Part shown: positions 6,233 through 44,225 of the stretch, piece after piece
Layout: the number at the start of each line of letters is the position of its first letter
How positions within the stretch are numbered: the stretch's first letter is position 1
Assembly: GCF_000968135.1 (NCBI RefSeq)
Contig: NZ_FO538765.1
Location: forward strand, 2,616,001-2,680,000
DNA length: 64,000 bases
Direction of reading: 5' to 3'
DNA from: Magnetospira sp. QH-2
GTDB taxonomy: Bacteria; Pseudomonadota; Alphaproteobacteria; Rhodospirillales; Magnetospiraceae
Made by a program: the position numbers and the translations under genes
Notes under the pieces: model-generated
Told to the model about the DNA's origin: nothing
Databases searched by the model: none
The model's input: only the letters and a program-made list of their open reading frames with translations

Positions 6233-6264
6233 GGCAATTCCCGGCGTTTTGACCAATGCTTTAA

Positions 6265-6501: not shown

Positions 6502-6534
6502 GCTCGTATTCCTTCGGCTTGCTTGGTCGATTAA

Positions 6535-6561: not shown

Positions 6562-6652
6562 CCCCTATCGCCCCGATTTCCCGGGAGCTCCGGGCGTTTG
6601 GTACCATACTTTATACGGCAAGGCCAGTATCCTGTCTTCCCCTTCCGGGGGA

Positions 6653-7390: not shown

Positions 7391-7414
7391 GTTTCGGTTC
7401 CCCACTATCAAAAA

Positions 7415-8814: not shown

Positions 8815-9267
8815 ATGTCTTTGTACGAATGCGTGTTTATCGCGCGCCAGGACATTTCCGCCCAGCAGGTGGATGCTCTGGGAGATGCCTTCACCACGGT
8901 CCTCACGGACAATGGCGGCGAAGTCAATAAGCGCGAGTATTGGGGCCTGCGTAGCCTCGCCTACAAAATCAAGAAGAACCGCAAGGGCCACTATGTGATG
9001 TTCCACATTGATGCCCCGGCCGCCGCCATTCATGAAATGGAACGGCAGATGCAGTTGAATGAAGACGTTCTGCGCTTCTTGACCCTGCGCATGGAAGAGC
9101 TTGAAGAAGGCCCGTCCATCATGATGCAGAACAAGGATCGGGGCGACCGCCCGGACCGTCCGCGCCGGGACCGGGATGACCGTCCGCGCCGTGACGACCG
9201 CCCGCGCCGCGATGATCGTCCCCGGGACGACGCGCCCGCCGCCGCCCCCGCCGAAGGAGCCGAATAA
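8815..9267 (+). CDS. rpsF: 30S ribosomal protein bS6
   Basis: This 150-residue small-subunit protein bS6 binds next to bS18 on the platform. The normal fold covers about residues 1-105 ([40 protein letters not shown]). Beyond it lies a tail of about 40 residues built of repeated D-R-P-R-R-D units and a final alanine-proline run. Such charged tails are common in alphaproteobacterial bS6. The ATG at 8815 is the family start. Its stop overlaps the rpsR start by one base. Confidence 0.97.
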
Positions 9268-9506
9268 TGAGCAAGCCCGCACCCCGCCGCCCGTTTTTCC
9301 GGCGCCGCAAGACCTGCCCGTTCTCCGGCGATGGCGCTCCGAAGATCGACTACAAGGACATCCGTCTGCTGGGTCGCTTCATTTCCGAGCGTGGCAAGAT
9401 CGTGCCGAGCCGGATCACTGCCGTTTCCGGCAAGAAGCAGCGTGAACTGGCCAAGGCCATCAAGCGCGCCCGATATCTGGGACTGCTGCCTTACGTGCTG
9501 AAGTAG
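9267..9506 (+). CDS. rpsR: 30S ribosomal protein bS18
   Basis: This 79-residue basic protein is bS18, partner of bS6 on the 30S platform. Recognisable parts are [15 protein letters not shown], the [19 protein letters not shown] helix and the end [13 protein letters not shown]. The start overlaps the rpsF stop (TAATG), so translation is probably coupled. Confidence 0.97.
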
Positions 9507-9532
9507 GCGCGGAACCCACCCACGGGGCCGAC

Positions 9533-10477
9533 ATGTCGAAAGAGACCATCACGGCCATCGCGGCCGGAGCTTTCAGCGGCTTGTTGGCCTTGAGCTGGGT
9601 CAGCGGGAATCCCTTTGGTATTCTGCTGACCTATGCAGCGCCCCTGCCCCTTTATTGGGTCGGACTGTCCCTTGGAACAAGGGCGCTGCTGACCAGTTGC
9701 CTGGCCGGGCTGGCGATTTCGGTCGTCGCGCTCGGTCCGCTTCCGGCCATGGCCTATGCCCTGGTGCATGTGGCTCCGGCCACCATGGTGGTCCGTTTCG
9801 CTCTGCTGAGTCAGCAAGACGAAAGCGACGGATCGAAAGTGGTCTGGTACCCGACCGGGCATGTGTTGGTCTGGTTGACGCTAATGACGGCGGCCATGCT
9901 TATGGTCATGTCCGTCTTTCTTCTGGGATCGGGGATCGCCCTGAGCCAGGAGATCGAAGAGATGTTGACGCGGCTGTTGTCGCCGCTTCTTGCCGCTGGC
10001 ACCGAGGCCGAGGTGAAGGAGTGGGTCACGATGGTGGCAGCCATTTTCCCCGGGTTGGTCGGAACCTCCTGGGTGATCATGGTGGTGGCCAACGGCGCCG
10101 CGGCGCAGGCGATCCTGACGCGTACCGGGCGAAATCTCCGCCCGTCGCCGAAGATGGCCAACCTGACGGTGCCCAGTTGGGCGCCGGTGCCTTTGGTGGT
10201 TGCCGCCGCTTTCGCGCTGGTCGCCAACGGAGAGTTTGAGTACCTCGGCCGGAACATGGTGATTGTGCTGGCCGTACCGTCGTTTTTCGTCGGGCTTGCC
10301 TTGGTGCATGCCCTGGCGCCCCGGTTCCCGCAACCGTTGCTGATCCTGGGCGTGTTTTATATGTTGGTGGTCTTTGTCGCCTGGTCCATGGCGGTAGTGG
10401 CTGCAATTGGTTTTGTCGAGCAATTGATCGGCTTCCGCCAGCGGTTGGCGGCCCCCGGTCAGCGCACGGGAGAGTAA
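9533..10477 (+). CDS. DUF2232 multi-pass membrane protein
   Basis: This 314-residue protein has about eight hydrophobic segments and matches the DUF2232 (YybS-like) membrane family by layout and position. In many alphaproteobacteria one such gene sits between rpsR and rplI, exactly as here (26 bases after rpsR, 4 before rplI). Its molecular role is unknown; the ribosomal operon context suggests co-expression rather than a ribosome function. No catalytic motif is evident. Confidence 0.82.
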
Positions 10478-10481
10478 GGTT

Positions 10482-11132
10482 ATGGATGTCATTCTGCTGG
10501 AACGCGTCGAGAAATTGGGTCAGATGGGAGACGTGGTCAACGTCAAGCCCGGCTATGCCCGCAACTATCTGCTGCCGCAGAAGAAAGCTCTGAGGGCCAC
10601 CGAGGCCAACAAGGCGGTCTTCGATGGTCAGAAGGCCCAATTGGAGGCCGACAACCTGCAGCGGCGTCAAGAAGCCGAGGCCGTGGCCGAGAAGATGGTC
10701 GATGTATCGGTCATCATCCTGCGTCAGGCCGGCGAGGCCGGGCAGCTTTACGGATCGGCCAACAGCCGGGACGTGGCCACCGCCCTCACCGAGGACGGCT
10801 ACACCGTTAGCCGCAGCCAGATCGAGCTGGCCCATCCGATCAAGTCCGTGGGCATGCACGAAGTGATCGTCCGCCTGCACCCGGAAGTGGCCGTGACGGT
10901 CACGGTCAACGTGGCCCGCACCGCCGAGGAAGCGCAGATCCAGGTCGAGACCGGCGCCGCCGTCTTGGGTGGCGAAGAGGAAGAGGAAAACACCGATCTG
11001 CCGCCCATGGGCTATAGCGAAGACGAACCCATGGACGCGGAGGCCGCCGAAGGCGAAGCGGGCGACGAAGCCCCCGCCGAGGAAGAGGCTGCGTCGGTGG
11101 TAGACGAGACCACCGAACAAGAAACCGCCTAA
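10482..11132 (+). CDS. rplI: 50S ribosomal protein bL9
   Basis: This 216-residue large-subunit protein bL9 has the N-terminal rRNA-binding domain ([30 protein letters not shown], split here only by reading), a connecting helix and a C-terminal domain ending near residue 150. The remaining 65 residues are almost entirely acidic and alanine-rich (E, D, A), an extension seen in alphaproteobacteria. It closes the rpsF operon and is followed by a terminator. Confidence 0.96.
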
Positions 11133-11163
11133 TCGGCACAATTCTTTTCCACAGGTTATACAG

Positions 11164-11191
11164 ACGGCGCGGTCTTGGATCGCGCCGTTTT
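11164..11191 (+). terminator. Rho-independent terminator after rplI
   Basis: An 8-bp stem ACGGCGCG / CGCGCCGT with a 9-base loop is followed by TTTT. It lies 31 bases after the rplI stop and ends the ribosomal operon before dnaB. Confidence 0.78.
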
Positions 11192-11364
11192 ACTGTGTTC
11201 AGTTATCCACAACGAAAGCAGTGGTAGCACTAGAGGCATAGCCGCAAGGAAACCATTTTATGTGTTTATCGTCAAAGCCTTATACTGACTAATTCGCTTA
11301 GTAGGAACCCCTCTGGAACATCCCTAGCCTTCCTATTAATAGCAATAGATAATAGTATCCACAC

Positions 11365-12885
11365 ATGGAGAATATCAGTGACGAACATGGTTCGCCCCCT
11401 CCGCCGGGAGACGAACCCCATACCTATTCCGACCCTGTTCCCGGCGGGTTGCCGGAGCGCGATGCGTTCCGTGCGCCACCGCGGAACTATGAAGCTGAAA
11501 AATCTCTTATCGGCGCAATCTTAGCGAACAACAGGGCCCATGAACGAGTCGCTGAGTTCTTGCGTCCAGAGCACTTTGCCGACCCAGTCAACGGTATGGT
11601 TTTTGAGGCTATCACTCTGCTAGTTGAACGCAGCCTGATAGCTGATTTGGTCACACTCAGGAACTACTTCGAATCGAATCAGCAATTAGCTGACGTGGGC
11701 GGGATACGCTATCTGACAGAGCTGGCTGATGCTGCGGTAACCATCATCAATGCCACCGAATATGGTCGCATTATTTATGACTTGCACCTCAAAAGAGAAC
11801 TGATCGACCTGGGTGAAGAGGTGGTCAACTCGGCCTTCGATTCCAATGTGGGCGAGACCGCCAACAGCCAGATCGAGGCGGCGGAACAACGGCTTTACGA
11901 CCTGGCTACCTCGGGCGAGACCGAAGGCGGCTTCAAGCCGTTCAAGGATTCGGTCCTGGGCGCGCTCAACGCGGCGGAGGCGGCCCACAAGCGGACCACA
12001 GGCCTGGCGGGCTGTACCACCGGGCTGCGCGACCTGGACAAGATGCTCGGCGGGCTGCATTCCTCGGACCTGCTGATCCTCGCCGGACGACCTTCCATGG
12101 GTAAGACCGCCCTGGCTACCAACATCGCCTATAACGCCGCCTACTCCCATGCCCGCACCAATGGCGAGGAAGGCGCGGTGGTCGGCTTCTTCTCGCTGGA
12201 AATGAGTGCCGAGCAATTGGCCGCCCGTATCATTTCCCAGGAAGTGCAGATTTCATCGGACCGCATGCGCAAGGGCGAACTGTCCAACGACGAGTTCACC
12301 CGCCTGGTCTCGGCCAGTCAGGCACTCTATCAACTGCCCTTTTTCATCGATGACACCCCGGCGCTGACCGTCTCGGCCCTGCGCACCCGGGCCCGGCGAC
12401 TGAAGCGCCAGCATGGCCTGAGCATGATCGTGGTGGATTACCTGCAACTGATCTCCGGCGCCGGCAACAAGAACGAAAACCGCGTGCAGGAACTGTCCGA
12501 AATCACTCGGGGCCTGAAGACCCTGGCCAAGGAACTGAACCTGCCGGTGATCGCTTTGTCGCAGCTGTCCCGCGCCGTGGAACAGCGGGAACCGCCACGC
12601 CCGCAGCTCTCGGATCTGCGTGAATCGGGCTCCATCGAACAGGATGCCGACGTGGTCATGTTCATCTACCGCGCCGAATATTACCTGGAACGCAAACGCC
12701 CCGACGCGGACGATGTGGAAAAGGCCGCCAAGTGGGAGGAGCGCCTGGACCGGGTGCGCAATCTGGCCGATGTGATCATCGCCAAGCAGCGTCATGGCCC
12801 CGTGGGCGACATCACCTTGCAGTTCACCGGACAATTCACTCGCTTCGGAGACCTGGACACCACGCACGGCGGCGACTACGAATAG
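11365..12885 (+). CDS. dnaB: Replicative DNA helicase DnaB
   Basis: This 506-residue hexameric helicase unwinds the fork 5' to 3'. It has an N-terminal DnaB domain (about 40-150), a linker helix and a RecA-like motor with Walker A GRPSMGKT (241-248), the FFSLEMSAEQLA segment, Walker B IVVDYLQLI and the arginine-finger region near ADVIIAKQRHGP. The first 35 residues are proline-rich and poorly conserved. It has a 230-bp upstream gap after the rplI terminator, so it is probably transcribed separately. Confidence 0.97.
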   Translation: MENISDEHGSPPPPGDEPHTYSDPVPGGLPERDAFRAPPRNYEAEKSLIGAILANNRAHERVAEFLRPEHFADPVNGMVFEAITLLVERSLIADLVTLRNYFESNQQLADVGGIRYLTELADAAVTIINATEYGRIIYDLHLKRELIDLGEEVVNSAFDSNVGETANSQIEAAEQRLYDLATSGETEGGFKPFKDSVLGALNAAEAAHKRTTGLAGCTTGLRDLDKMLGGLHSSDLLILAGRPSMGKTALATNIAYNAAYSHARTNGEEGAVVGFFSLEMSAEQLAARIISQEVQISSDRMRKGELSNDEFTRLVSASQALYQLPFFIDDTPALTVSALRTRARRLKRQHGLSMIVVDYLQLISGAGNKNENRVQELSEITRGLKTLAKELNLPVIALSQLSRAVEQREPPRPQLSDLRESGSIEQDADVVMFIYRAEYYLERKRPDADDVEKAAKWEERLDRVRNLADVIIAKQRHGPVGDITLQFTGQFTRFGDLDTTHGGDYE

Positions 12886-12913
12886 GATCCAGAAACCTCG
12901 CGGCGATTGCATG

Positions 12914-12980
12914 CTTCGACAAGCTCAGCACGAGGCTGTAAGAATTGCAATTATGGAGCCTCACCCCGAGCCTGTCGAAG
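12914..12980. repeat. Short palindromic repeat (CTTCGACA..GAGG type)
   Basis: Two imperfect inverted arms (12914-12936 and 12958-12980) contain the CTTCGACAAGCTCAG and GAGCCTGTCGAAG motifs that also occur inside family-1 repeats and between iscA and hscB. It follows dnaB by about 30 bases and may act as its terminator-like hairpin. Confidence 0.7.
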
Positions 12981-13035
12981 GGTGAGGCGTGCCAGCCAGC
13001 GAAAAGCCTTTTCACGCCTCGACCACTATGGTGCC

Positions 13036-14154
13036 ATGAAAAAGACCGAAGCCCGAACCGGAGCCATCCTGACCATCGATCTGAAAGCGCTGGTCGATAA
13101 CTGGCGGCTATTGCGAGACCGTGTGGCACCCCGCCAATGCGCCGCCGTGGTCAAGGCCGATGCCTATGGCCTGGGCATGAACCGCGTGGCCCAAGCCCTG
13201 TGGAACGCAGGCTGCAAGGTGTTCTTTGTGGCTCAGATCGAGGAAGCCACGACCCTGCGCAAGAGACTGCGCGAGGCCGAGATCCATGTGCTCAACGGCC
13301 TGCTGGAAGGTACCGAATCCGATTTTCTGGCCCAAAACCTCATTCCGGTGCTCAACGACATCCATCAAATCCGTGCTTGGACTCAATTCTGCGGCCAGAC
13401 ACCTCGCCCTTGCGATATTCATCTGGATACGGGCATGTCCCGTCTGGGCCTGTCCCCGGAGGAAACGGAACAACTGATCGCCGATACGGATCTCTGCCAG
13501 GCATTGGCACCGAGCCTGATCATGAGCCACCTGGCCTGCGCCGATAGCCCGAACCACAAGATGAACAGCGGACAGCTGGAAGAGTTCACAACCTTGAGGC
13601 AGCGGCTGGATGCGGCAGGTCTGCGCGCGCCCGGTTCTATCGCCAACTCCTCGGGGATCTTCCTCGGAGCCGACTATCATTTCGACCTGGCCCGGCCCGG
13701 CGTGGCGATCTATGGCGTCAACCCGACCCCCGACAACCCTAACCCCATGGCGCAAGTAGTTCGGTTGCAAGCAAAAATCCTGCAAGTCCGTACAATTGAC
13801 ACCCCCCGGGCGGTTGGATATGGTGCCACCCATCGCGTCTGGGGTCCGTCCCGCATCGCCACGGTTGGCGTCGGTTATGCGGATGGCTTTTTGCGCACGA
13901 TCAGTAACAGGGGGCGAGCCTTCATCAAAGACCATCGCGCCCCGGTGGTGGGACGCATCTCCATGGACCTGACGACCCTCGACGTGACCGCTGTCCCAGA
14001 ACAGCTGACCCAGCCAGGGTGTATGGTGGATCTGATCGGCCCCCACAGCACGGTGGACGACGTCGCCCAGGCAGCGGGGACCATTGGCTATGAGATCCTC
14101 ACAGGCCTTGGCAATCGCTTTCTGCGGGTCTACAGCAACGGGCCAGGCGCATGA
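13036..14154 (+). CDS. alr: Alanine racemase
   Basis: This 372-residue PLP enzyme makes D-alanine for peptidoglycan. The PLP lysine is K40 in AVVKADAYGLG, and the second catalytic tyrosine lies in GVGYADGF near residue 275. The substrate-binding GRISMDLTTLDVT motif follows. The ATG at 13036 gives the family length; longer in-frame starts run into the palindromic repeat. Its last bases overlap the start of the next gene (ATGA), so it is co-transcribed with the lipid ABC pair. Confidence 0.95.
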   Translation: MKKTEARTGAILTIDLKALVDNWRLLRDRVAPRQCAAVVKADAYGLGMNRVAQALWNAGCKVFFVAQIEEATTLRKRLREAEIHVLNGLLEGTESDFLAQNLIPVLNDIHQIRAWTQFCGQTPRPCDIHLDTGMSRLGLSPEETEQLIADTDLCQALAPSLIMSHLACADSPNHKMNSGQLEEFTTLRQRLDAAGLRAPGSIANSSGIFLGADYHFDLARPGVAIYGVNPTPDNPNPMAQVVRLQAKILQVRTIDTPRAVGYGATHRVWGPSRIATVGVGYADGFLRTISNRGRAFIKDHRAPVVGRISMDLTTLDVTAVPEQLTQPGCMVDLIGPHSTVDDVAQAAGTIGYEILTGLGNRFLRVYSNGPGA

Positions 14155-28910: not shown

Positions 28911-32260
<3,350 letters not shown>

Positions 32261-32386
32261 GGCTCACCGCTGCATTTATCACATCACTACGAGGCTTTTT
32301 TAGCAGTATTCCGTAGCGCTAGGGCATGAGTAGTCTGTTTCCAGTAAACGGGACTTCTCTCTGTCCAGCAGCATCGGAGATTCGAC

Positions 32387-33508
32387 ATGGCCAGCAACAC
32401 CCCTCTCGACCGCCGCCTGTTCTTGCGCGGTCTCGCGGCAACCGGCGCCCTGGGCGCGGTGGCCGTCACCCCCCTGCGTCACGCCCTGGCGGCGACCACC
32501 ACCGTGGGCTTCATCTATGTGGGCGCCCGCGATGACTACGGCTACAACCAGGCCCACGCGGAAGGCGCGGCGGCGCTGAAAGGCATGCCGGGTATCAAGG
32601 TGGTCGAGGAAGAAAGCGTTGCCGAGACGGTGGCCGTGCAAAAGACCATGGAGAGCATGATCAACCTGGACGGCGCGACCCTGCTGTTCCCCACCTCGTT
32701 CGGCTATTTCGATCCGCATATGCTGAAAATGGCCAAGAAGTACAAGGACCTGACCTTCCTGCATTGTGGGGGCCTTTGGAGCGCCGACAAGCACCCCAAG
32801 AACACCGGCAGCTACTTTGGCTACATCGACGAAGCCCAATACATTTCCGGCATCGTCGCGGGCTACGCCAGCAAGACCAAGAAGCTCGGCTTCGTGGCCG
32901 CCAAGCCCATCCCGCAGGTGTTGCGCAACATCAACTCCTTTACCCTCGGCGCCCAGTCGGTGGATCCGACCATCACCACCCAGGTGATCTTCACCGGTGA
33001 ATGGTCCATGCCGGTGAAAGAAGCCGAAGCCACCAACAGCCTGGCCGACCAAGGCGTCGACGTGGTCACCTGCCATGTGGACGGCCCCAAGGTGGTGGTC
33101 GAAACCGCCGAGAAGCGCGGCCTGTTCACCTGCGGCTATCATGCCTCCCAGGCCCCGTTGGCCCCCAAGGGCTACCTCACCGGGGCCGAGTGGAACTGGT
33201 CCAAGGTCTATGCCGACTACGTGACCATGTTCACCGGCGGCAAGACCATTCCCAATCTGGTGCGCGGCGGCCTGAAGGAAGGCATCGTCAAGATGTCCGA
33301 TTACGGCCCGGCGGCCTCCGCCGAAGCCCGCAAACACGCCGACGCGGTCAAGGCCAAGTTCCTGGCCGGGGACATGGTCATCTACAAGGGCCCCATTGAG
33401 ACCAACAAGGGCAAGACCATCATTCCGGCCGGCAAGGCCCACGGTCAGACCGACATCTGGCTCGAGTCCATGGACTGGTTGGTCAAGGGCGTCATCGGCG
33501 GCGCCTGA
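32387..33508 (+). CDS. BMP family ABC transporter substrate-binding protein
   Basis: This 373-residue periplasmic binding protein of the BMP (PnrA/Med) family, usually tied to purine nucleoside uptake, carries a Tat-type signal (RRLFLRG at 9-15, then a hydrophobic stretch to about 36). The mature part begins VGFIYVGARDDYGYNQAHAEG, a BMP hallmark, and continues with the FGYFDPHMLKMAKKY and HCGGLWSADKHPKNTGSYFGYIDEAQYISG segments. It heads the operon of two permeases, formamidase, hydrolases and ATPase. The enzyme set suggests an amide or ureide ligand rather than a nucleoside; this is inference. Confidence 0.9.
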   Translation: MASNTPLDRRLFLRGLAATGALGAVAVTPLRHALAATTTVGFIYVGARDDYGYNQAHAEGAAALKGMPGIKVVEEESVAETVAVQKTMESMINLDGATLLFPTSFGYFDPHMLKMAKKYKDLTFLHCGGLWSADKHPKNTGSYFGYIDEAQYISGIVAGYASKTKKLGFVAAKPIPQVLRNINSFTLGAQSVDPTITTQVIFTGEWSMPVKEAEATNSLADQGVDVVTCHVDGPKVVVETAEKRGLFTCGYHASQAPLAPKGYLTGAEWNWSKVYADYVTMFTGGKTIPNLVRGGLKEGIVKMSDYGPAASAEARKHADAVKAKFLAGDMVIYKGPIETNKGKTIIPAGKAHGQTDIWLESMDWLVKGVIGGA

Positions 33509-34575
33509 TGATGACCGGACTTCCGAACCGCTTGCTTGCCGCTTCGGAAGCCCTCTTCCTTCCCGTGGCGGCCCTGGTGGTGTCCCTGATCCTGTTCGGG
33601 ATCTTCGTGGCACTGGCCGGGGTCGATCCGTTCGAGGTGCTGGCGCTCATGTACAAGGGCGCGTTCGGCACCGCTTTTTCCATCCAGAACACCCTGCAGC
33701 GGGCCGCGCCCCTGATCCTCGCGGCGCTCTGCACCGCCCTGCCCGCCCAATTGGGATTGGTCATCATCGGCGGCGAAGGGGCCTTGGTCATGGGAGGCCT
33801 GATGGGTGTGGCCGCCGGACTGGCCCTACCCGAGGGCTCGGCGCCCTTGACCGTACAACTGACCATGGCCTTGGGCGGCATGCTGGCGGGCGGTGCCTGG
33901 ATCGCCCTGTGCGGTGCCTTGCGCCACTATCGCGGCGTCAACGAGACCATTTCCAGCCTGCTGATGACCTATATCGCCATCGCCATCCTCAATCACATGG
34001 TCTCCGGACCCATGCGCGATCCGGCCAGCCTCAACAAGCCGTCCACGCCCTCCATCGGCGATGCCAACATGATCGGCGCCATCCCCGGCATGGATGTGCA
34101 TTGGGGGCTGGTCTTCGGCATCCTGTTCTGCATCGGCACTTACATCTTGATGTACCGCACCACTTTCGGCTTTGGCGCCCGCATGGTCGGCGGCAATCCG
34201 CGCGCCGCCGCCATGTCTGGCCTGCCGGTGGGGCGCCTGTTGATGATCACCTGTTTCATCGCCGGAGCCGCCGCCGGGCTGGGGGGCATGGTCGAGGTCG
34301 CCGCCGTGCATGGCGCCGCCAACGCCCCCCTGGCCGCCGGATATGGCTATACGGGCATTCTGGTGGCCTTTCTGGCGCGGCAGAATCCCCTGGCGGTGAT
34401 CCCGGTCGCTATCTTGTTGGGCGGCATCGATGCCAGCGGCGGCCTGCTGCAACGCCGCCTGGACCTGCCCGATGCCACGGTGCTGGTGCTGCAAGGCATT
34501 ATCTTCGTGGTCATTCTGGCCAGCGAGACCCTCTATGGCCGCTTCAGAATCTTCAAACCGCGAGAGGTGGGGTAA
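33508..34575 (+). CDS. ABC transporter permease (BMP/CUT2 type), subunit 1
   Basis: This 355-residue membrane permease of the branched-chain/nucleoside type has eight or more helices and the ALCTALPAQLGLVIIGGEGALVMGGLMG motif (the conserved NLGAEG-like loop is replaced by IIGGEG). The cytoplasmic GGNPRAAAMSGL loop follows, which contacts the ATPase. The start overlaps the stop of the binding-protein gene, and the end overlaps the second permease by one base. Confidence 0.88.
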   Translation: MMTGLPNRLLAASEALFLPVAALVVSLILFGIFVALAGVDPFEVLALMYKGAFGTAFSIQNTLQRAAPLILAALCTALPAQLGLVIIGGEGALVMGGLMGVAAGLALPEGSAPLTVQLTMALGGMLAGGAWIALCGALRHYRGVNETISSLLMTYIAIAILNHMVSGPMRDPASLNKPSTPSIGDANMIGAIPGMDVHWGLVFGILFCIGTYILMYRTTFGFGARMVGGNPRAAAMSGLPVGRLLMITCFIAGAAAGLGGMVEVAAVHGAANAPLAAGYGYTGILVAFLARQNPLAVIPVAILLGGIDASGGLLQRRLDLPDATVLVLQGIIFVVILASETLYGRFRIFKPREVG

Positions 34576-35507
34576 TGGAAGGCGCCGCCGCCGATCTGGG
34601 ATTCTGGACCGTGCCCCTGGCCATTTTTGCCGGGGCCATCCGGGTCAGCACGCCGTTCCTGCTGGTCAGTCTCGGCGAATGCCTGACCGAACGCTCGGGC
34701 CGCATCAATCTGGGCCTGGAGGGCACCTTGGTGATGGGCGCCATGGCGGGCTACGCGGTGTCCTATCTCAGTGGTTCGCCTTGGCTCGGGGTACTGGTGG
34801 CGGGGCTGGTGGGCAGTGGCTTTGGGCTGCTGCATGCGGTGATCTGCAATATGCCGAAGGTCAATGATATCGCCTTGGGCATTGCCTTGATGCTGTTCGG
34901 CACCGGCTTGGCCTTTTTCCTCGGCAAGGGCTTCATTCAGCCCCAGGCACCCAATCTGCCTGCTTTCCATCTGGGTTGGTGGAGCGATATCCCGCAAATT
35001 CGCTCGGCGCTGGAAATCAATGTGTTGTTCGTGTTCGGGGTGCTGCTGACCCCGGCGATCCTGTTCTTCCTCAATCGCACCCGCTGGGGGCTGATGCTGC
35101 GGACCGTGGGGGATTCGGAGGACGCCGCCCGCGCCGCCGGTTTTTCGGTCGACCGGGTGCGCCTACTGACCACCATGGCCGGCGGCTTCCTGGCCGGGGT
35201 CGGTGGTTCGTTCCTGTCGCTCTACTATCCGGGCAGCTGGAACGAGGGCCTGTCCAGTGGTCAGGGCATCACCGCCGTGGCGCTGGTCATCTTCGCCCGC
35301 TGGAACCCCTTGTACTGCTTCTACGCCTCGCTGCTCTTCGGCGGTGCCGGGGCCCTGGGCCCAGCCTTGCAGGCGGTGGGCATTACCCAGGGCTACTACC
35401 TGTTCAACGCGGCACCCTACATCCTCACCCTCGGCATCATGATCCTCACCTCGTCGTCCACCAAGCGCTTCTCCGGCGCCCCGGGCGAGTTGAGTGTGAC
35501 AAGATAG
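34575..35507 (+). CDS. ABC transporter permease (BMP/CUT2 type), subunit 2
   Basis: This 310-residue partner permease contains SLGECLTERSGRINLGLEGTLVMGA (in the family the RxGxxNLGxEG loop) and GDSEDAARAAGFSV, the ATPase coupling loop. ATG at 34575 directly follows and overlaps the TAA of subunit 1. A much longer open frame extends upstream in this frame but is the shadow of subunit 1 and has no conserved sequence. Confidence 0.88.
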   Translation: MEGAAADLGFWTVPLAIFAGAIRVSTPFLLVSLGECLTERSGRINLGLEGTLVMGAMAGYAVSYLSGSPWLGVLVAGLVGSGFGLLHAVICNMPKVNDIALGIALMLFGTGLAFFLGKGFIQPQAPNLPAFHLGWWSDIPQIRSALEINVLFVFGVLLTPAILFFLNRTRWGLMLRTVGDSEDAARAAGFSVDRVRLLTTMAGGFLAGVGGSFLSLYYPGSWNEGLSSGQGITAVALVIFARWNPLYCFYASLLFGGAGALGPALQAVGITQGYYLFNAAPYILTLGIMILTSSSTKRFSGAPGELSVTR

Positions 35508-35522
35508 AAGGAACCATTTGCA

Positions 35523-36527
35523 ATGAGCGGTCTCGGCGGTCTCAACAAATCCTCCAACGGCGTGGTGCTGGGCATGGTGCAATTGCAGTTGCCCGTGGTC
35601 GAAACTAAGCAGCAGTTGGCGGCCCAGACCGAAAGGGTCGTTGCCATGGTGGCCAAGGCGCGCCGCAACATGCCGACCATGGATCTGGTGGTGTTTCCCG
35701 AATACGCCCTGCATGGCCTGTCCATGGATACCAATCCGGAGATCCTGTGTTCCCTCGACGGCCCGGAGGTGGCGGCTTTCAAGCAGGCCTGTATCGACAA
35801 TCAAATCTGGGGCTGCTTCTCGATCATGGAACAGAATCCGGAGGGCAATCCCTACAATTCAGGTCTGATCATCGATGACCAGGGGGAAATCCAGCTCTAT
35901 TACCGCAAGCTACACCCTTGGGTACCGGTGGAGCCCTGGGAACCCGGCGATAGGGGCATCCCGGTCTGTGATGGTCCCAACGGCTCGAAGATCGCGCTGA
36001 TCATCTGTCATGACGGCATGTTCCCGGAGATGGCCCGCGAGGCGGCCTACAAGGGGGCGGAGATCATGATCCGCACCGCGGGCTATACCGCGCCGGTCCG
36101 CGAAAGCTGGAAATTCACCAACCAGTCCAATGCCTTTTGCAATCTGATGGTGACCGCCAATGTTTGCATGTGCGGCTCCGACGGTACCTTCGATTCCATG
36201 GGCGAGGGCATGATCGTCAATTTCGACGGCACCATCATCGCCCATGGTGGTGGCCGCCCAGACGAGATCATCACCGCCGAGGTGCGCCCCGATCTGGTGC
36301 GCGAGGCCCGTACCCAATGGGGGGTGGAAAACAACATCTATCAATTCGGCCACCGGGCCTATGTCGCCGTAAAGGGTGGGGCCCGCGACTGCCCCTATAC
36401 CTACATGCAGGACTTGATGGCCGGAGAATACAAGCTGCCCTGGGAGGACCAGGTGGAAGTCACCGACGGCACGTCCTGCGGCTTCGATGCACCGACCCGC
36501 GAATTCAAGGGGAACCCCAATGGCTGA
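35523..36527 (+). CDS. amiF: Formamidase (AmiF-type, nitrilase superfamily)
   Basis: This 334-residue amidase matches AmiF in length and motifs and would hydrolyse formamide to formate and ammonia. The nitrilase triad is visible as E60 ([10 protein letters not shown]), K129 (YYRKLHPW) and C162 ([10 protein letters not shown]), and the AmiF-specific [23 protein letters not shown] follows. A close alternative is the aliphatic amidase AmiE, but the N-terminal and 334-residue length favour AmiF. It lies between the permeases and an isochorismatase-fold hydrolase in one operon. Confidence 0.9.
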
Positions 36528-37203
36528 GACCTTCATCAATTCCACGCCCTACAAATGGCCCTACAACGGCGATCTGCGGCCCGACAACACGGCCCTGATC
36601 ATCATCGACATGCAGACTGACTTCTGCGGCATCGGCGGCTATGTGGACCAGATGGGCTACGACATCTCCATGACCCGGGCCCCCATTGAGCCGATCAAGG
36701 CGGTGCTGACGGCCATGCGGGAGAAAGGTTATCTGATCATCCATACCCGCGAGGGCCATCGCCCGGACCTGTCGGACCTGCCCGCCAACAAGCGCTGGCG
36801 ATCGCAGCAGATCGGCGCCGGGATCGGCGACCCGGGGCCCTGCGGCCAAATCCTGGTGCGCGGCCAACCGGGCTGGGACATCATCCCGGACCTTTACCCC
36901 ATCGATGGCGAGCCGATCATCGACAAGCCGGGCAAGGGCTCCTTTTGCGCCACGGACCTGGAACTGATCCTGCGCACCCGGGGCATCGAGAACATCATCC
37001 TGACCGGCATCACCACCGACGTCTGCGTCCATACCACCATGCGCGAGGCCAATGACCGGGGCTTTGAATGCGTGATCCTCCAGGATTGCTGCGGCGCCAC
37101 CGACCGGGGCAATCATGACCATGCGGTCAAAATGGTGACCATGCAGGGCGGCGTATTCGGCGCCGTGGCCACCTCCAAAGATCTGATCGACGGATTGCCA
37201 TGA
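36520..37203 (+). CDS. Isochorismatase-fold amidohydrolase 1
   Basis: This 227-residue cysteine hydrolase has the D-K-C triad: D in [11 protein letters not shown] in DKPGKGSF and C in [11 protein letters not shown]. The family includes biuret hydrolase, ureidoacrylate amidohydrolase and N-carbamoylsarcosine amidase, which release ammonia or carbamate from small amides. It overlaps the formamidase by 8 bases and the ATPase gene by 4 bases. A paralogue with the same triad is encoded at 38755. Confidence 0.88.
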
Positions 37204-38744
37204 ACGCGGCGATGGTCGAAATCTTCCACGACGCCAAGCATCCCATTGGTTTGGAGGTGCTGGGACTGACCAAGCGATTCGGGGATTTCACCGCCTTGGA
37301 AGATGTTTCCATGAAGGTGGCGCCGGGCAGCTTCCATGCCCTGCTGGGTGAAAACGGCGCGGGCAAGAGCACCCTGGTCAAATGCGCCATGGGCTTTCAC
37401 CCGGCCACCGACGGCAGCATCCAGGTGGGCCGCCACGAATATGATATTGCCAACCCGCAGATCGCCCAGGAACTGGGGCTGGGCATGGTCTATCAGCATT
37501 TTACCCTGGTGCCGCATATGACGGTGCTGGAAAACCTGGTTCTGCCGCGCAGCAACCTGCCGCTGGTGATCGACTGGAAAGCCGAACAGGCCGGTGTGGA
37601 GTCTTTCATCGCCGACATGCCGTTCCAGGTTCCCCTGCATACCCGTGCCCGCGACTTGGCGGCAGGGGAAAAGCAGAAGGTCGAGATCCTCAAGCAGCTC
37701 TATCTGGGCTGCAAATTCCTCATCCTCGACGAACCCACCTCGGTTTTGACTCCCGGCGAGGCGGACGAGGTGCTCGGCCTGATCCGCGACATGACCCGCA
37801 CGGACGGGCTGACCGTCTTGATGATCACCCACAAGTTCCGCGAGGTGATGGCCTTCGCCGACGAGGTTTCGGTGCTGCGTCGTGGCCGCTACGTGGGTGG
37901 CGGGCTGACCGCCGACCTGACCCCCGATGACATGGCCCGCATGATGGTCGGTGCAAACCTGGTCAAGCAAGGCATGGCCCGGGGAGATGAGGTGCCGGGC
38001 GCGGTACGGCTGGAACTCAAGGAGATCACCGCCGACGACGATACCGGCCATTCGGCGGTCAAGGGGGTCAGTCTGGCCCTGCGCGGCGGCGAGATCTTCG
38101 GCATTGCCGGGGTCTCGGGCAACGGTCAGAAGGAACTGGTTCAGGTGCTGTCCGGACAACGCAAACAGACCGGCGGCGGCATGGCGGTTCATGGTGAATC
38201 CTATGGCGCGACCCGGTCCGAAATGCGCCGCCACAAGGTCTTCTGTCTGCCCGAGGAGCCTCTGCGCAATGGCTGCGTGGCCCGCATGAGTGTCGCCGAG
38301 AACATGGCCTTTCGGACCTTCGACCGTCCGCCCGAGGCGCGGGGCAATTGGTGGCTGGACCGGGGCGCCATGCGGCGCAAGGCCAAGGAATTGATTGGCC
38401 GCTACAACGTCAAATGTCCGTCGCCCGATGCCCCCATCGCCACCCTGTCGGGCGGCAATGTGCAGCGCGCCGTGCTGGCCCGGGAACTGTCCGGCGACGT
38501 GGACGTGCTGGTGGTGGCCAATCCGGTATTCGGCCTGGACTTTGCCGCGGTCGCCGACATCCGGGGACAGATCATGGCGGCCCGCAACCGGGGCGTGGCG
38601 GTCCTGCTGGTCAGCGAGGACCTGGATGAAATCCTCGAACTTTCCGACCGCATCGGCGTGATGTTTCACGGCCAATTGACTCACGAAACGCCTATCGCCG
38701 AGGCCGACCTGACCGTCATCGGTCGCCACATGGCCGGTCATTGA
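37200..38744 (+). CDS. ABC transporter ATPase, double-domain (BMP/CUT2 type)
   Basis: This 514-residue protein has two tandem ATPase domains. The first has Walker [10 protein letters not shown] (about 50-58), Q-loop YQHFTLVP, and Walker [11 protein letters not shown]; its signature is the divergent [11 protein letters not shown]. The second is degenerate (GVSGNGQKE in place of Walker A) but keeps [14 protein letters not shown]. This is the normal asymmetric arrangement for nucleoside/sugar importers of this type. It is set between two isochorismatase-like genes rather than beside the permeases. Confidence 0.92.
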
Positions 38745-38754
38745 GGAGACAGAC

Positions 38755-39423
38755 ATGCCCGTCATCGCCAATGCCCTGCCCTTTGCCTTTGAATTCGATC
38801 CGGCCACCACGGCCCTGGTGGTCATCGACATGCAGCGCGATTTCCTGGAGCCCGGCGGTTTCGGCGAGGCCCTGGGCAACGATGTGTCGCAACTGGCCCC
38901 GGTGGTCCCGGCGACGGAAAAGCTGCTCGCCGCCTGCCGCGCCGCCGGATTGGAAATCGTCCATACCCGGGAATCCCATCTGCCGGATCTGTCGGATTGC
39001 CCCCCGGCCAAGCGCAACCGGGGAAGCTGCAAACTGCGCATCGGCGATCCGGGGCCCATGGGCCGGATCCTGGTGCGCGGCGAGCCGGGCAATGACATCG
39101 TGCCGTCCCTGGCCCCCCTGCCGGGAGAGACGATCATCGACAAGCCGGGCAAGGGAGCGTTCTACAAGACGGGCCTGACTCATAGGCTTGCCGATGATGG
39201 TATTACCCATTTGATCTTTGCCGGCGTCACCACCGAGGTTTGTGTGCAAACCTCCATGCGCGAGGCCAATGATCGCGGCTTCGATTGCTTGCTGGTAGCG
39301 GATTGCACCGGCAGCTATTTCCCTGAATTCAAACAGGCAACCCTGGAAATGGTCCGCGCCCAGGGCGGTATCGTCGGCTGGACGGCGGATCTATACGCGG
39401 TCTTGGAGGCCTTGGATGGATAA
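38755..39423 (+). CDS. Isochorismatase-fold amidohydrolase 2
   Basis: This 222-residue paralogue of the hydrolase at 36520 has the same triad: D in [16 protein letters not shown] in DKPGKGAFY and C in [11 protein letters not shown]. The shared [10 protein letters not shown] / [10 protein letters not shown] stretch shows the two are close relatives, probably with related amide substrates. GAGGAGA precedes the ATG, and the end overlaps the cupin gene by 8 bases. Confidence 0.88.
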
Positions 39424-39778
39424 GCCGCTGGTCTTCCCTGCCCTCCTCTCCAATCCCCGGCAATGGGATGATCGGGACTGGGAACCCTTTCGCGAGGGGA
39501 TTGAGATCAGCTGGGTTCATCGCCCAGACAGCGAAGAAGGGCCGTCGTCGGCCTTTTTGCGCTACGGTCCCGGCGCCTCCGTGCCCGCGCACCAACACCC
39601 GGCGTTCGAGTATATTTTGGTCCTGGAAGGGTCACAGACCGACGACAACGGCTGTCACCAGGCGGGCAGCCTGGTGATCAATCCCCCCGGGACCGGCCAT
39701 GCGGTTCGCAGCGAAGAGGGCTGCCTGGTGCTGGCCATCTGGGAACAGCCGGTCCGGTTTACCAAGACCACATCGTGA
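39416..39778 (+). CDS. Cupin domain protein (ChrR-like)
   Basis: This 120-residue single cupin has the metal-binding pattern in [17 protein letters not shown] (two His and a Glu) and a later histidine in PPGTGHAV. The overall form resembles the cupin half of ChrR anti-sigma factors, but the zinc-binding anti-sigma half is absent, so a sensor or enzyme role in the operon is equally possible. It is the last gene of the amide operon; its stop lies at the edge of a family-2 repeat fragment. Confidence 0.8.
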
Positions 39779-39865: not shown

Positions 39866-40735
39866 TTACCCTTTGACCGCCCCCGCGGTCATGCCGGTGA
39901 TGATCTGCTTCGAGGCGACGAAGGTGAAGATGATCGGCGGAATGGCCAGCAGCATGCCGGTCGCCATGATCACACCCCAGTTGATGTCATACTCGGTCAG
40001 GGAATTCACAATGGTCACCGGGACCGTGCGCGTGTTGCGATCCAACAACGCATTGGCGATCAGGAACTCGTTCCAGGCGATGCGGAAGGTAAAGATGGAC
40101 GCCGCGGCCAGACCCGGCTTGATCACCGGCAGCACTACCAGGAAGAACACTTGCAAGGCATTGGCGCCATCGATGCGGGCGGCTTCTTCCAATTGGATCG
40201 GGACCTGCACGATGAAGCTTTGCAAAATCCAAATCACGAACGGCAGATTCATGGCCACGTAGACCAGAATGATACCGGCGGTGGTGCCATCCAATTGATA
40301 CTGGAAGGTCCAGATACCGAACACCGGCACCAGCAGCACGGCGGGCGGAACCATGCGCATCATCAAGGTGGTCATGGACATGGTGCCCCGCCCCATGAAG
40401 CGGAAACGGACCAGCGCATAGGCCGCCATGCAGCCAACCACCAGAGTGATACCGGTGGAAACCAGGGCCACGGTCAGCGAGTTCCCCAAGGCCCGTCCGA
40501 AGGTGGGATCGCAGTAGTCCACATGGGCCGGGTCATACCACAGCACATTGCAAAGCACGGTCTCGTAGTTCTGCAAGGTGGGCATGAAGATCAAGGCCGA
40601 GGCATCGCTCATGATGTCCACATTGAGCCGCAAGGAGGTGGTCAGCATCAGGTAGATCGGCCCGATGGACATCAAGATCAGGGCGAGCATCAGGGCATAG
40701 AATGCCGGGTTTTGCCGTTCTGTCGGGTTGCTCAT
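39866..40735 (-). CDS. CUT1 sugar ABC transporter permease (MalG type)
   Basis: This 289-residue permease has six membrane helices and the EAA coupling loop EEAARIDGANALQVFFLVVLPVIKPGL. It is the last gene of the minus-strand operon ATPase - binding protein - permease - permease, 3 bases after its partner. The substrate is inferred to be a sugar or sugar acid from the nearby enzymes. Confidence 0.9.
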   Translation of the reverse strand: MSNPTERQNPAFYALMLALILMSIGPIYLMLTTSLRLNVDIMSDASALIFMPTLQNYETVLCNVLWYDPAHVDYCDPTFGRALGNSLTVALVSTGITLVVGCMAAYALVRFRFMGRGTMSMTTLMMRMVPPAVLLVPVFGIWTFQYQLDGTTAGIILVYVAMNLPFVIWILQSFIVQVPIQLEEAARIDGANALQVFFLVVLPVIKPGLAAASIFTFRIAWNEFLIANALLDRNTRTVPVTIVNSLTEYDINWGVIMATGMLLAIPPIIFTFVASKQIITGMTAGAVKG

Positions 40736-40738
40736 GAT

Positions 40739-41659
40739 CTATCCCTTCTCCGCTTCTTGCCGGACGTTGGCGGCACGGGTTTCAACGACCTTGTTGTAGA
40801 TGAACATGAAGACGGTCAGTGCCAGCAGCAGCAGCAGCAGGAAATTCGACATGGCCGCCGAGACCCCCAGTTCTCGGAATTCCGAGGCTGTTCGGGCGAT
40901 GCGCAGGGACATGATTTCCGTCGACAGCCCGGGACCGCCGTTGGTCATGACCAAGATCACTTCCAGTACCTTGAAGGCGTCGATCAGCCGCAGAAGCGCC
41001 GTGACGACCAACACCGGCATCATCAAGGGTAGCTTGATATAGAGGATCTGTTGCCAGCCCGAGGCCCCATCGATACGCGAAGCCTCCATGGCCGAGGTGG
41101 GCAATGATTGCAAGGCCGCAAGGGCAAGAATGAAGATAAACGGAGTCCATTGCCAGACATCGGCGATGATGATGGAGGTCAGCGCCCAGCCGGAATCCGA
41201 TAGCCAGGGAATGGCCTCAAAGCCCCAACTCTTCAGCGTCTGATTAAAGATACCCACCGAAGGGTGGTACATATAACGCCACATGAGACCGACCACGATG
41301 GGCGCGATCATCATCGGCAGGATAAAAATAGTCCGTAAAACAGAAACGCCGCGAATATTGCGGTCCAGCAACAGGGCCAATCCGACCCCGATCACCATTT
41401 CGGAAATCACCACGATGGATGAGAATTTCAGGGTCACCGTCATGGATTCCCGGAAGCTGGCATCCTGAAGTAAGTTTAAATAATTGCGAAAACCGACCCA
41501 TTCGGCCTCACCGATCCGTTGACTGGGGTTCCAGTCCAGGAAGCTGGCATAGACCATGTAGCCAATGGGATAGAGCAACCCGATGATCATGATCACCGCC
41601 GCCGGGGCGAGGAACATGTAGGGAGTGATACGCTTGACGTTTGCAGCAGCCATATCCAA
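40739..41659 (-). CDS. CUT1 sugar ABC transporter permease (MalF type)
   Basis: This 306-residue permease has six helices; its EAA loop reads MEASRIDGASGWQQILYIKLPLMMPVL. It begins PYMFLAPAAVIMIIGLLYPIGYMVYASF, as expected for the MalF-like partner. The start may be the ATG at 41659 or the one two codons later. It lies 95 bases after the binding-protein gene. Confidence 0.9.
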   Translation of the reverse strand: MDMAAANVKRITPYMFLAPAAVIMIIGLLYPIGYMVYASFLDWNPSQRIGEAEWVGFRNYLNLLQDASFRESMTVTLKFSSIVVISEMVIGVGLALLLDRNIRGVSVLRTIFILPMMIAPIVVGLMWRYMYHPSVGIFNQTLKSWGFEAIPWLSDSGWALTSIIIADVWQWTPFIFILALAALQSLPTSAMEASRIDGASGWQQILYIKLPLMMPVLVVTALLRLIDAFKVLEVILVMTNGGPGLSTEIMSLRIARTASEFRELGVSAAMSNFLLLLLLALTVFMFIYNKVVETRAANVRQEAEKG

Positions 41660-41754
41660 CCGTTCCTATCCGTTCCGTCCAGGTGAGGCGCGGGAGGCCC
41701 CGAAGCCGGAGGGCAGGTCCTTGTGAGACGCCGCCCTCCGCATGGTTCAGGAGA

Positions 41755-43083
41755 TTACTTCCAGCTGTAGTAGCCGGCTTCCTCCATGATCTTCTTGGTG
41801 CGCATGGCGACACCGTCCAACGCTTGCTTAACGTCGAGGTTTTCGGTCAACACCTTGGACAGCGCGGTGCCCAGATCGGCATTGATCTTGCCCCACACGG
41901 GGATGATCGGACGCCAATCCGGATCGGCATGCTTGAGGGCTTCACCGAAGGTCTTCATATGCGGGAACTTGGCATTTACTTCCGCGTCCGCATGGGTCGA
42001 GTAGCGCGACGGGTTGCCACCGGCCAGGGCGACCAGCTTATCGCCGTGCTTGGAAGTGAGCCATTGCATCAGCAAGAAGGCGGCTTCCTTGTTCTGGGCA
42101 TTCTTGGGAATACCGATACCAAAACCACCGGTCTGCGATCCGCGCCGCACGCCCATGGGATGGGGTGCCCAGCCGATCTTGCCAACCACCTTGGACTTCT
42201 TGGGGTCGTTGACCTGTCCGGCAAACACGGTGGAGTCCAGGAACATGGCGGTTTGGCCTTGCAAAAAGGCCGCACCGGCTTCGGCGAAGCCAAAGGTCTG
42301 CGAGCCTTCGGGGCCGCAATCAACGATGGTTTTTAGAGCCTTGGCAGCCTTTACACCGGCTTCGTTGTTGACGATGGGATTCCATTCGTCATCAAAGATG
42401 CGACCACCCAGCGGGGCCAGATGCAGCAAAAAGGCGTGGCTGGCATGGTGGCCGGACGCCGCACGGGAGGACAGGCCACCCATGCCCGGTTCCAGCTTCG
42501 GAATCTTGCAGGCCAGGTCGAGCAATTCGTCGTAGTTGGTCGGAACCTTGAGGCCATGCTTGTCGAAGATATCCTTGCGATAGCCGAGGATCGAGGTTTC
42601 GGAACCATAGGGCACGCCGTATAGGGATCCGGTCGGACCCGGCAGATAGCCTTTTTCACCACCGGCGATACCGATGTTGCCCACATAGCCGTCAATAAGA
42701 TCCTTGGCGTCATATTTGGGATCGGAGAGCTTCGGGTTCATGAAGTAGCGGGCTAGGTTTTCCAACTGGTCGGCATAAACATAGTCGGCCTTGGAAAACA
42801 CAACATAGGCGACCAGATCATAATCACCTTTGCTCTTGGTCAGTTCCAGAGTCTGTTTTTCGCGCATCTTGAGGTATTGGAGAAGATCGACCTCGACTTT
42901 GATGCCCGTCTCTTTGGTGAACTCCGGCAGAACCTTCATCACCGCGTGATAATGCGGGTGAGCCGGGAAATTGACCACCAGGGTTTTGCCCTTGTAGGGC
43001 GCATAGGGATTCGCGAACGCGGCCCCTAATGTCAGCGTCACGGCGGCTGCCGTAAGCGCTACTGTCTTTACCAGATTGAGCAT
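41755..43083 (-). CDS. CUT1 sugar ABC transporter substrate-binding protein
   Basis: This 442-residue extracellular solute-binding protein (family 1) has a signal peptide (hydrophobic 9-23, ending AAFA). GVPYGSETSILGYRKDIFDKHGLKVPTNYDELLDLA is the usual hinge region, and GQTAMFLDSTVFAG and GFGIGIPKNAQNKEAAFLLMQWL are also family landmarks. It lies 50 bases after the ATPase gene. The ligand is not visible from motifs. Confidence 0.9.
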   Translation of the reverse strand: MLNLVKTVALTAAAVTLTLGAAFANPYAPYKGKTLVVNFPAHPHYHAVMKVLPEFTKETGIKVEVDLLQYLKMREKQTLELTKSKGDYDLVAYVVFSKADYVYADQLENLARYFMNPKLSDPKYDAKDLIDGYVGNIGIAGGEKGYLPGPTGSLYGVPYGSETSILGYRKDIFDKHGLKVPTNYDELLDLACKIPKLEPGMGGLSSRAASGHHASHAFLLHLAPLGGRIFDDEWNPIVNNEAGVKAAKALKTIVDCGPEGSQTFGFAEAGAAFLQGQTAMFLDSTVFAGQVNDPKKSKVVGKIGWAPHPMGVRRGSQTGGFGIGIPKNAQNKEAAFLLMQWLTSKHGDKLVALAGGNPSRYSTHADAEVNAKFPHMKTFGEALKHADPDWRPIIPVWGKINADLGTALSKVLTENLDVKQALDGVAMRTKKIMEEAGYYSWK

Positions 43084-43133
43084 TTCTCCATTCCTCCTGT
43101 TTTCAATCCTATCGATGACTTTTTCGTCGGCTG

Positions 43134-44225
43134 TTAGAGCCTGAATTCGGTCTTGTCGTCGAACACCATGATATTCTTGGGATCGACCGAGAAATTCACT
43201 GTCTGGCCGATGTCAAATCGTGCCGAACTGCGCAGTTCCACCAAGAGCTCCTGGGTCCCGCAGAGGGTGACCAGCACCGAATGGGCTCCAAGATACTCGG
43301 CGAGTTTGACGTAAAGAGAGATCTGTATTCCCGCCGCATCGCCTTCCTCGGTCGGCTTCACCGATGACGGTCGAATGCCCAGCGTGACTTTGCGCCCGCT
43401 CGCATGGTCCAGACGTTGCCGCATGGATTGGGAAAGATCCAACAGGAACCCCTCGCCCTGGGCGGCCAGGGTGCCATTGGTCTCGATCAATTCCGCTTCG
43501 AGGAAATTCATTGTCGGGCTGCCGATGAACCCAGCGACGAACTTGTTGGCCGGTTCCTTGAACAAGGTTTCCGCCGAGCCTTCCTGCTGCACCAATCCAT
43601 GGGCCATGACCACGATCCGGTCCCCCAAAGTCATGGCTTCCACCTGGTCATGGGTCACATAGACCATGTTCTTGTCGAGGGTATTGCGCATCTCGGCCAA
43701 CTCGGTGCGCATTTTTGCCCGCAGCTTGGCATCCAGATTGGATAGCGGCTCATCGAACAAAAACGTGGAGGAATCCCGCACCAGGGCGCGGCCCATGGCG
43801 ACACGCTGACGCTGACCGCCGGAAAGCTCGCCCGGCTTGCGGGCCAGCAATTGCTCGATTCCCAGCATGCCTGCGACCCGTGCCACGCGCTCGTCGATGG
43901 TGGCCTTCGCCACCTTTTGCAGGCGCAGGGCAAAGGACATGTTCTTGGCGATGTTCATGTGGGGATAGAGCGCGTAGTCCTGAAACACCATGGCGATGTC
44001 CCGGTCTTTGGGCTCCAGCTTGCTGATTGGTTTATCATCGAACCAGATCTCGCCACTGGTGAGATCTTCCAGCCCCGCCAGCATGCGCAAGGTGGTGGAC
44101 TTTCCGCAGCCGGATGGCCCAACGAGAACGGTGAATTCACCGTCATCGAATTCCAAATCGAACGGGGGAAGGACTTGAACGGGTCCGTAGCTTTTTTCCA
44201 CGGAATCGAAGCGAATTCTCGGCAC
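43134..44225 (-). CDS. CUT1 sugar ABC transporter ATPase (UgpC/MalK type)
   Basis: This 363-residue ATPase has Walker A GPSGCGKST (about 36-44), Q-loop VFQDYALYPHMN, signature LSGGQRQRVAMGRA, Walker B FLFDEPLSNLDA and the switch histidine in VTHDQVEAM. After residue 240 a TOBE/MalK-type regulatory domain follows. It is the first gene of the importer operon; its upstream 345-bp gap carries two LacI-type operators. Confidence 0.93.
   Translation of the reverse strand: MPRIRFDSVEKSYGPVQVLPPFDLEFDDGEFTVLVGPSGCGKSTTLRMLAGLEDLTSGEIWFDDKPISKLEPKDRDIAMVFQDYALYPHMNIAKNMSFALRLQKVAKATIDERVARVAGMLGIEQLLARKPGELSGGQRQRVAMGRALVRDSSTFLFDEPLSNLDAKLRAKMRTELAEMRNTLDKNMVYVTHDQVEAMTLGDRIVVMAHGLVQQEGSAETLFKEPANKFVAGFIGSPTMNFLEAELIETNGTLAAQGEGFLLDLSQSMRQRLDHASGRKVTLGIRPSSVKPTEEGDAAGIQISLYVKLAEYLGAHSVLVTLCGTQELLVELRSSARFDIGQTVNFSVDPKNIMVFDDKTEFRL

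Follow-up and report, generated by a model that had tools for sequence, protein, structure and literature searches.

A predicted triuret and biuret operon with a BMP-type importer and a BiuH-linked AmiF amidase in Magnetospira sp. QH-2

Introduction

Triuret and biuret occur as impurities in fertilisers, and the oxidation of uric acid is a further source of triuret (PMC7948467). In the published route, TrtA converts triuret to carboxybiuret, which loses CO2 either spontaneously or by the action of TrtB to give biuret; BiuH converts biuret to allophanate and AtzF degrades the latter to ammonia and CO2 (PMC7948467). The trtA, biuH and atzF genes are clustered in Herbaspirillum sp. BH-1 and Rhizobium leguminosarum 3841 (PMC7948467), and floodplain nitrifiers carry trtA-biuH-atzF together with the transporter genes bmpA-nupABC (PMC12625717). 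The papers cited here describe no tested importer of triuret or biuret. Here we analyse a stretch of 64,000 nucleotides, referred to below as the window, from the alphaproteobacterium Magnetospira sp. QH-2 (NZ_FO538765.1, C1:2616001-2680000). It contains eight closely packed genes for an ATP-binding cassette (ABC) importer with a BMP-family binding protein, an AmiF-family amidase, two isochorismatase-fold hydrolases and a cupin. We propose, with a probability of roughly 85%, that they form a nitrogen-scavenging operon which would import triuret and biuret and hydrolyse them stepwise for nitrogen. The operon is of a published kind: the triuret pathway was described in 2020, and a BMP-type transporter next to trtA-biuH-atzF was reported in 2025. 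What most deserves attention is the link between AmiF and BiuH.

Results

The two hydrolases, both of the D-K-C type, are recognisable from their sequences as BiuH and TrtA. The predicted BiuH scores above the curated biuret hydrolase model (Table 1), and its closest solved chains are R. leguminosarum BiuH (6azo, 6azn/6azq), followed by RhdBiuH (6xjm). It matches at 13 of 13 checked positions with a single constant offset; nine of these (D36, F41, Y53, K142, K145, D173, C175, Q215 and V218) come from the literature (PMC7948467, except C175, from PMC5806882) and four (Y47, E84, S147 and T200) were placed here through a comparison of TrtA with BiuH. The predicted TrtA falls below the same model (260.8 bits versus a cut-off of 370), as expected for a TrtA protein, and its nearest solved chain is TrtA itself (6xix), with 308 bits versus 230 for the best BiuH chain. 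It agrees with Herbaspirillum TrtA, again at a constant offset, at all 15 active-site and specificity positions (D24, F29, F35, N41, E72, K129, K132, A134, V157, T158, E160, C162, Y187, Q202 and I205), a set that includes the residues deciding between triuret and biuret (PMC7948467); N41, E160, Q202 and I205 are among the matches. Eleven of twelve TrtA positions are invariant across 81 TrtA rows (A134 is kept in 64), as are ten of eleven BiuH positions across 70 BiuH rows (S147 is kept in 68). RutB, the ureidoacrylate enzyme, was rejected for both genes (114.9 and 99.7 bits, versus a cut-off of 378).

This agreement of residues and models indicates an operon for triuret and biuret. The original prediction, made from the letters of the window, had listed biuret among its candidate compounds, a choice borne out by the identification of BiuH. 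It had also proposed that an imported small ureide is split stepwise to ammonia and formate: the class of chemistry stands, and can be refined to triuret and biuret via BiuH and TrtA, as does ammonia, but the main co-product would be CO2, with formate coming only from whatever AmiF does.

All eight operon ORFs (open reading frames) and a LysR-family gene in front of them are intact, on the + strand, and span 31352-39778 of the window (Table 1). No gap between neighbouring operon genes exceeds 15 bases, and several of the genes overlap. The start of permease 2 is best placed at the ATG at 34575, within the stop of permease 1, and that of BiuH at the ATG at 36520, within the end of the AmiF gene. 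Family scans agree with the gene labels of the original prediction, and its description of the close packing, with the ATPase gene between the two hydrolase genes, holds. The BMP protein, two permeases and ATPase stand beside trtA and biuH as in the BMP-type triuret operon.

Table 1. Genes of the predicted triuret and biuret operon and the adjoining regulator (window coordinates)
Feature	Coordinates	Strand	Family evidence and remarks
LysR-family regulator	31352..32260	+	PF00126/PF03466; directly upstream of the BMP gene
BMP-family binding protein	32387..33508	+	Pfam Bmp, 134.2 bits vs cut-off 24.1
ABC permease 1	33508..34575	+	BPD_transp_2
ABC permease 2	34575..35507	+	BPD_transp_2; TAATG overlap with permease 1
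AmiF-family amidase	35523..36527	+	NCBIfam formamidase NF009803 (equivalog), 590.8 bits vs cut-off 406
Predicted biuret hydrolase BiuH (isochorismatase fold)	36520..37203	+	NF050097, 419.9 bits vs cut-off 370
Double ABC ATPase of the importer	37200..38744	+	Family scans
Predicted triuret hydrolase TrtA (isochorismatase fold)	38755..39423	+	Nearest solved chain 6xix
ChrR-like cupin	39416..39778	+	HxH...E...H motif; overlaps trtA

The LysR-family gene probably regulates the operon. A sigma-54 type promoter was considered and rejected: none was seen upstream of the BMP gene (best score 5/11), and among 58 relatives none reached 9/11 and one scored 8, so that nitrogen control is not evident from the sequence. 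Facing the operon on the opposite strand (39866-44225, -) is an ABC transporter with two permeases, a binding protein and an ATPase, of the sugar type as judged by eye and apparently unrelated to the operon.

The genome, 4.05 Mb on two contigs and 99.97% complete, also encodes AtzF (C1:556296-557963; 756.4 bits versus a cut-off of 511), roughly 2 Mb away from the operon and next to what looks by eye like a peptide-type ABC transporter, as well as urease. A profile search of the genome found no member of the TrtB/AtzH family (PF11533); the same profile matched in one of 14 control genomes (Caulobacter). Carboxybiuret would therefore have to be decarboxylated spontaneously or by another protein. 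The lack of trtB/atzH is shared with comammox. Cyanuric acid hydrolase, AtzD, gave no match in the genome with the AtzD of the Rhizobium plasmid pRL4b5 as query, a search run without a positive control.

We took the best 80 loci of at least 594 stretches (580 confirmed) matching TrtA in named bacterial genomes; these are the nearest relatives only, and the counts are lower bounds owing to short contigs. Relatives of the ATPase occur in 70 loci, of BiuH in 69, of the BMP protein in 60, of AmiF in 32, of the cupin in 14 and of LysR in 9. Where at least 6 kb precede trtA (68 loci), BMP, BiuH and ATPase are found together in 59, and AmiF as well in 26 of these 59; an arrangement this frequent is not due to chance. 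With a loose call (30% identity), which could also pick up AtzE-type amidases, AtzF is seen in 46 of the 80 loci; a strict call, requiring that the C-terminal domain be reached, gives 26. The LysR relatives are 58-70% identical to the window protein; eight are divergent and just upstream, and one lies downstream on the other side. The same direction as in the window is seen in Sulfitobacter (L102). A cluster of GntR-type ORFs is found in 53 of the 80 loci. The operon set adjoins atzF and LysR on a Sulfitobacter plasmid, and atzF and GntR on an Enterobacter plasmid. A mobilizable IncR plasmid of 31 kb from Enterobacter hormaechei (L125, NZ_CP058178.1) carries a complete triuret operon (atzF-BMP-perm-perm-amiF-biuH-ATPase-trtA-gntR; 3998-13621) flanked by two IS1 copies, and the AmiF of Klebsiella pneumoniae plasmid H68 has the same identity to the window AmiF as that of L125. 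The same order as in the window is found on pRL4b5 of R. leguminosarum bv. trifolii 4B (L101; BMP-perm-perm-AmiF-BiuH-ATPase-TrtA-cupin), which differs in having AtzD between BiuH and the ATPase. In some loci AtzD lies inside or beside a triuret operon (L101, 9691-10746; L073, 82-798), where it is a second entry into biuret. Behind the ATPase of one BMP-BiuH operon (L119, 17323-17823) we also saw a TadA-like deaminase, under the TadA cut-off, which may be a ring deaminase.

The association of AmiF with BiuH was followed in two genome samples that were not picked on AmiF context, 385 genomes of the class and 398 of the phylum. AmiF (≥72% identity) occurs in 12 genomes of the class sample, all within the 51 that have a BiuH/TrtA-family match (hypergeometric 9e-12, kinship ignored), and AmiF (≥71% identity) in 15 of the phylum sample, all within the 45 with a BiuH-family match (6e-16, kinship likewise ignored). 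Ten of the 12 class AmiF genes directly adjoin a BiuH-family gene; in the other two genomes AmiF is 6.3 kb from BiuH (G361) or at a contig end right behind the BMP gene and both permeases (G288). In the phylum sample, AmiF and BiuH share a contig and are no more than 9 kb apart in 14 of 15 genomes; in the exception (G464) AmiF is on another contig, where the 18 kb fetched contain no further operon gene. The window genome and G361 are in both lists, leaving 25 distinct AmiF genomes: all 25 have a BiuH-family gene, and AmiF is in its neighbourhood in 24, with G288 counted on the strength of its contig end. These counts exclude weaker matches, of 36-38% identity, in three genomes of the class sample and two of the phylum sample; the three of these five that were checked score higher against aliphatic amidase than against formamidase. 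A quick tree was built for 60 operons from joined BiuH, ATPase and TrtA rows. On it AmiF needs 19 state changes versus about 20 when shuffled, so that its presence is scattered over the tree, although AmiF genes beyond the fetched stretches would have escaped this count. Nor is the position of AmiF fixed: in L015 and L122 it follows the ATPase, and in L118, L119 and L123 it precedes the BMP gene by some kilobases.

AmiF scores above the formamidase equivalog and carries the Glu-Lys-Cys triad; its active-site loops differ from those of characterised enzymes. In an alignment of 66 rows (59 distinct, seven pairs being one gene fetched twice), Glu60, Lys133, Cys166, Trp137 and Tyr192 never vary, and Glu141 is present in 65. 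All six are shared with the H. pylori and B. cereus enzymes (2dyu, 5g3o), from which the window AmiF differs in the loop after Glu60, where a two-residue deletion removes Trp71, in the loop around Tyr192, and by Ser-Met in place of Tyr229-Phe230. Compared with three outside AmiF proteins only (H. pylori, B. cereus and Klebsiella), 51 alignment positions spread over the whole protein pass a filter for residues specific to the BiuH-linked clade. They include, in 65 or 66 of the 66 rows, positions 63-64 and 67-68 and the loss of 70-71 behind Glu60, 189-190 and 193-195 around Tyr192, and 229-230. Against a simple reading of these loops, the loss of 70-71 and Pro195 are also found in some or all aliphatic-amidase-like rows. 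A structure model of AmiF (mean predicted local distance difference test, pLDDT, 75.4) matches formamidase folds, as expected; because its pLDDT drops under 50 in parts of the protein, the active-site loops 134-143 and 187-192 among them, we did not rely on it to locate the changed residues. A second AmiF group lies behind urtABCDE on a Klebsiella plasmid (L124, NZ_CP107453.1, 3200-8969; one context was read), and 356 of 494 AmiF-matching plasmid records are from Klebsiella.

The binding protein of the importer has a twin-arginine-like leader, as judged by eye. Its nearest structure by sequence is AtzT (6pi5, 184 bits), encoded on the atrazine plasmid, followed by 3s99, and the fold of its model (mean pLDDT 87.1) is also closest to AtzT (template-modelling scores 0.80/0.89). 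The two share BMP subfamily, fold, aromatic sandwich and Ser97/Phe98. AtzT binds guanine, ammeline and 2-hydroxyatrazine, and cyanuric acid at 340 uM, and nine positions line its pocket: Tyr45, Ser97, Phe98, Thr139, Glu165, Asn169, Trp194, Asn218 and Asn220 (PMC6834077). Among 63 operon BMP rows, selected for their similarity to the window protein, 61 or more retain Tyr45, Ser97, Phe98, Asn169 and Trp194. Four positions are changed, Glu165 to Gln in 60 rows, Thr139 to Gln in 57, and Asn218 to His and Asn220 to Asp in all 63. The His and Asp are also present in 3s99, an adenine binder, and in another 3s99-like BMP protein of the window genome; both keep the Glu, which makes Gln177 (Glu165 of AtzT) the most distinctive change of the pocket. 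Assigning guanine as the ligand by plain analogy with AtzT was rejected, as four of the nine positions differ. Since two of the four changes are shared with 3s99, the pocket does not settle the ligand; a flat, amide-rich molecule would fit it. The original prediction overstated its case in calling such a ligand a new assignment for a BMP protein, given the non-nucleoside ligands of AtzT (PMC6834077) and the presence of bmpA-nupABC near trtA in the nitrifiers (PMC12625717).

The metal motif of the cupin is complete, with H59, H61, E65 and H95 invariant in 15 of 15 rows. The cupin is found in 14 of the 80 loci, all alphaproteobacterial by title, and an NTF2-like relative of HpxZ/AtzH in 26 (two of them on the other strand), but never both; L019, L050 and L057 are, like the window (39416-39778), among the examples of this exclusion. 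Among 64 loci examined, the NTF2-like protein lies within 3 kb behind trtA in just 7. The cupin could substitute for TrtB as carboxybiuret decarboxylase, an idea we offer as a lead only, and kinship could explain the exclusion.

Discussion

Our analysis suggests that Magnetospira sp. QH-2 scavenges nitrogen from triuret and biuret. The BMP-type importer would carry a flat ureide into the cell, where TrtA would release ammonia from triuret to leave carboxybiuret, which would give biuret and CO2; the residues of the window protein point to this step, which was shown for a homologue (PMC7948467). BiuH would then convert biuret to ammonia and allophanate, and AtzF, encoded away from the operon, allophanate to ammonia and CO2. 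The published triuret operon has the same TrtA and BiuH residues and the same clustering (PMC7948467), and that of the nitrifiers likewise has a BMP-type importer adjoining trtA and biuH, though within a different gene set (PMC12625717). Several observations weigh against our interpretation: unlike in the published triuret operon, atzF is elsewhere and trtB was not found, the published pathway has no role for the added AmiF and cupin, and the importer pocket also resembles that of nucleobase binders. A chance neighbourhood or a decayed cluster, for which the patchy occurrence of AmiF and the cupin speaks and nothing more, is already refuted by the conserved gene order: the core order is kept across classes, the ORFs are all intact and tightly packed, and the key positions of TrtA and BiuH are invariant with one exception each.

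The alternatives of some weight concern the importer and AmiF. It is unlikely that the cargo of the importer is a purine base or an oxidised purine whose breakdown products are cleaned up inside the cell by the ureide enzymes. The affinity of AtzT for guanine and ammeline (PMC6834077), the five kept pocket residues and the His and Asp in common with 3s99 would agree with such a role, but the Glu of AtzT and 3s99, also kept by the other 3s99-like BMP protein, has become Gln in nearly all operon rows, and the operon has no purine-degrading gene. General amide scavenging, in which AmiF acts on outside formamide and the importer carries short amides, is compatible with the naming of BiuH and TrtA and has in its favour an AmiF far above the formamidase cut-off with its triad, Trp137 and Tyr192 intact. 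We nevertheless consider it doubtful, since close AmiF relatives occur in the sampled genomes only together with a BiuH-family gene, the window-type AmiF has its own fixed changes, including in active-site loops, and the AmiF behind the Urt transporter of the Klebsiella plasmid forms a separate sequence group (47-48% identical).

Nor is AmiF at all likely to replace a missing pathway enzyme by hydrolysing, for example, allophanate or urea. AtzF is indeed not in this operon, and the title of the B. cereus formamidase entry 5g3o, 'inhibited with urea', suggests that a ureido carbonyl fits the pocket. The window genome has both AtzF and urease, however, and AtzF is not scarcer beside AmiF (strict call, 14 of 32 AmiF-bearing versus 12 of 48 AmiF-lacking loci; loose call, 18 of 32 versus 28 of 48); a replacement of AtzF by AmiF was rejected on these counts. 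Optional as it is, yet so seldom apart from BiuH, AmiF looks instead like an accessory enzyme that handles another substrate of this route. TrtA acts on formylurea, its second-best substrate, at 0.3% of the triuret rate (PMC7948467, Table 2), and hydrolysis of the terminal amide, once CO2 is lost, would yield formamide. This activity suggests that AmiF either takes formamide or deformylates formylurea or formylbiuret directly. An N-formyl ureide of this kind would be the most likely substrate of the accessory enzyme, the alternative being formamide left over after attack of TrtA or BiuH on formylurea, and the changed loops favour direct deformylation a little. A broader proposal, in which the BiuH-linked AmiF is an N-formyl-ureide deformylase providing a third way into biuret, the cupin takes the place of TrtB and the operon serves the salvage of oxidised purines, is tentative and can claim only a minor share of our confidence. 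Formylbiuret and formylurea would here arise by oxidative breakage of a purine or triazine ring. The ring of 5-azauracil or oxonate opens to formylbiuret.

We did not find the AmiF-BiuH link in print, although Robinson et al. (2018) or the supplement of PMC7948467 may show an AmiF gene. The main text of PMC7948467 makes no mention of formamidase, cupin or BMP in a word search, and the stem 'formamid' is absent from that of PMC12625717. Literature searches for biuret with formamidase, or (by title and abstract) for formamidase with ABC transporter and isochorismatase, gave unrelated matches only, and that for formamidase with cyanuric acid gave none; formylbiuret appeared only in prebiotic chemistry, and formylurea with oxidation only in the TrtA paper.

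If the deformylase proposal is correct, AmiF would open a third route into biuret, beside those from triuret (TrtA) and cyanuric acid (AtzD). If the link to BiuH reflects a different substrate, many 'formamidase' annotations in the Pseudomonadota would carry the wrong physiological label, and the conserved Gln of the BMP pocket offers a direct handle on what BMP importers carry.

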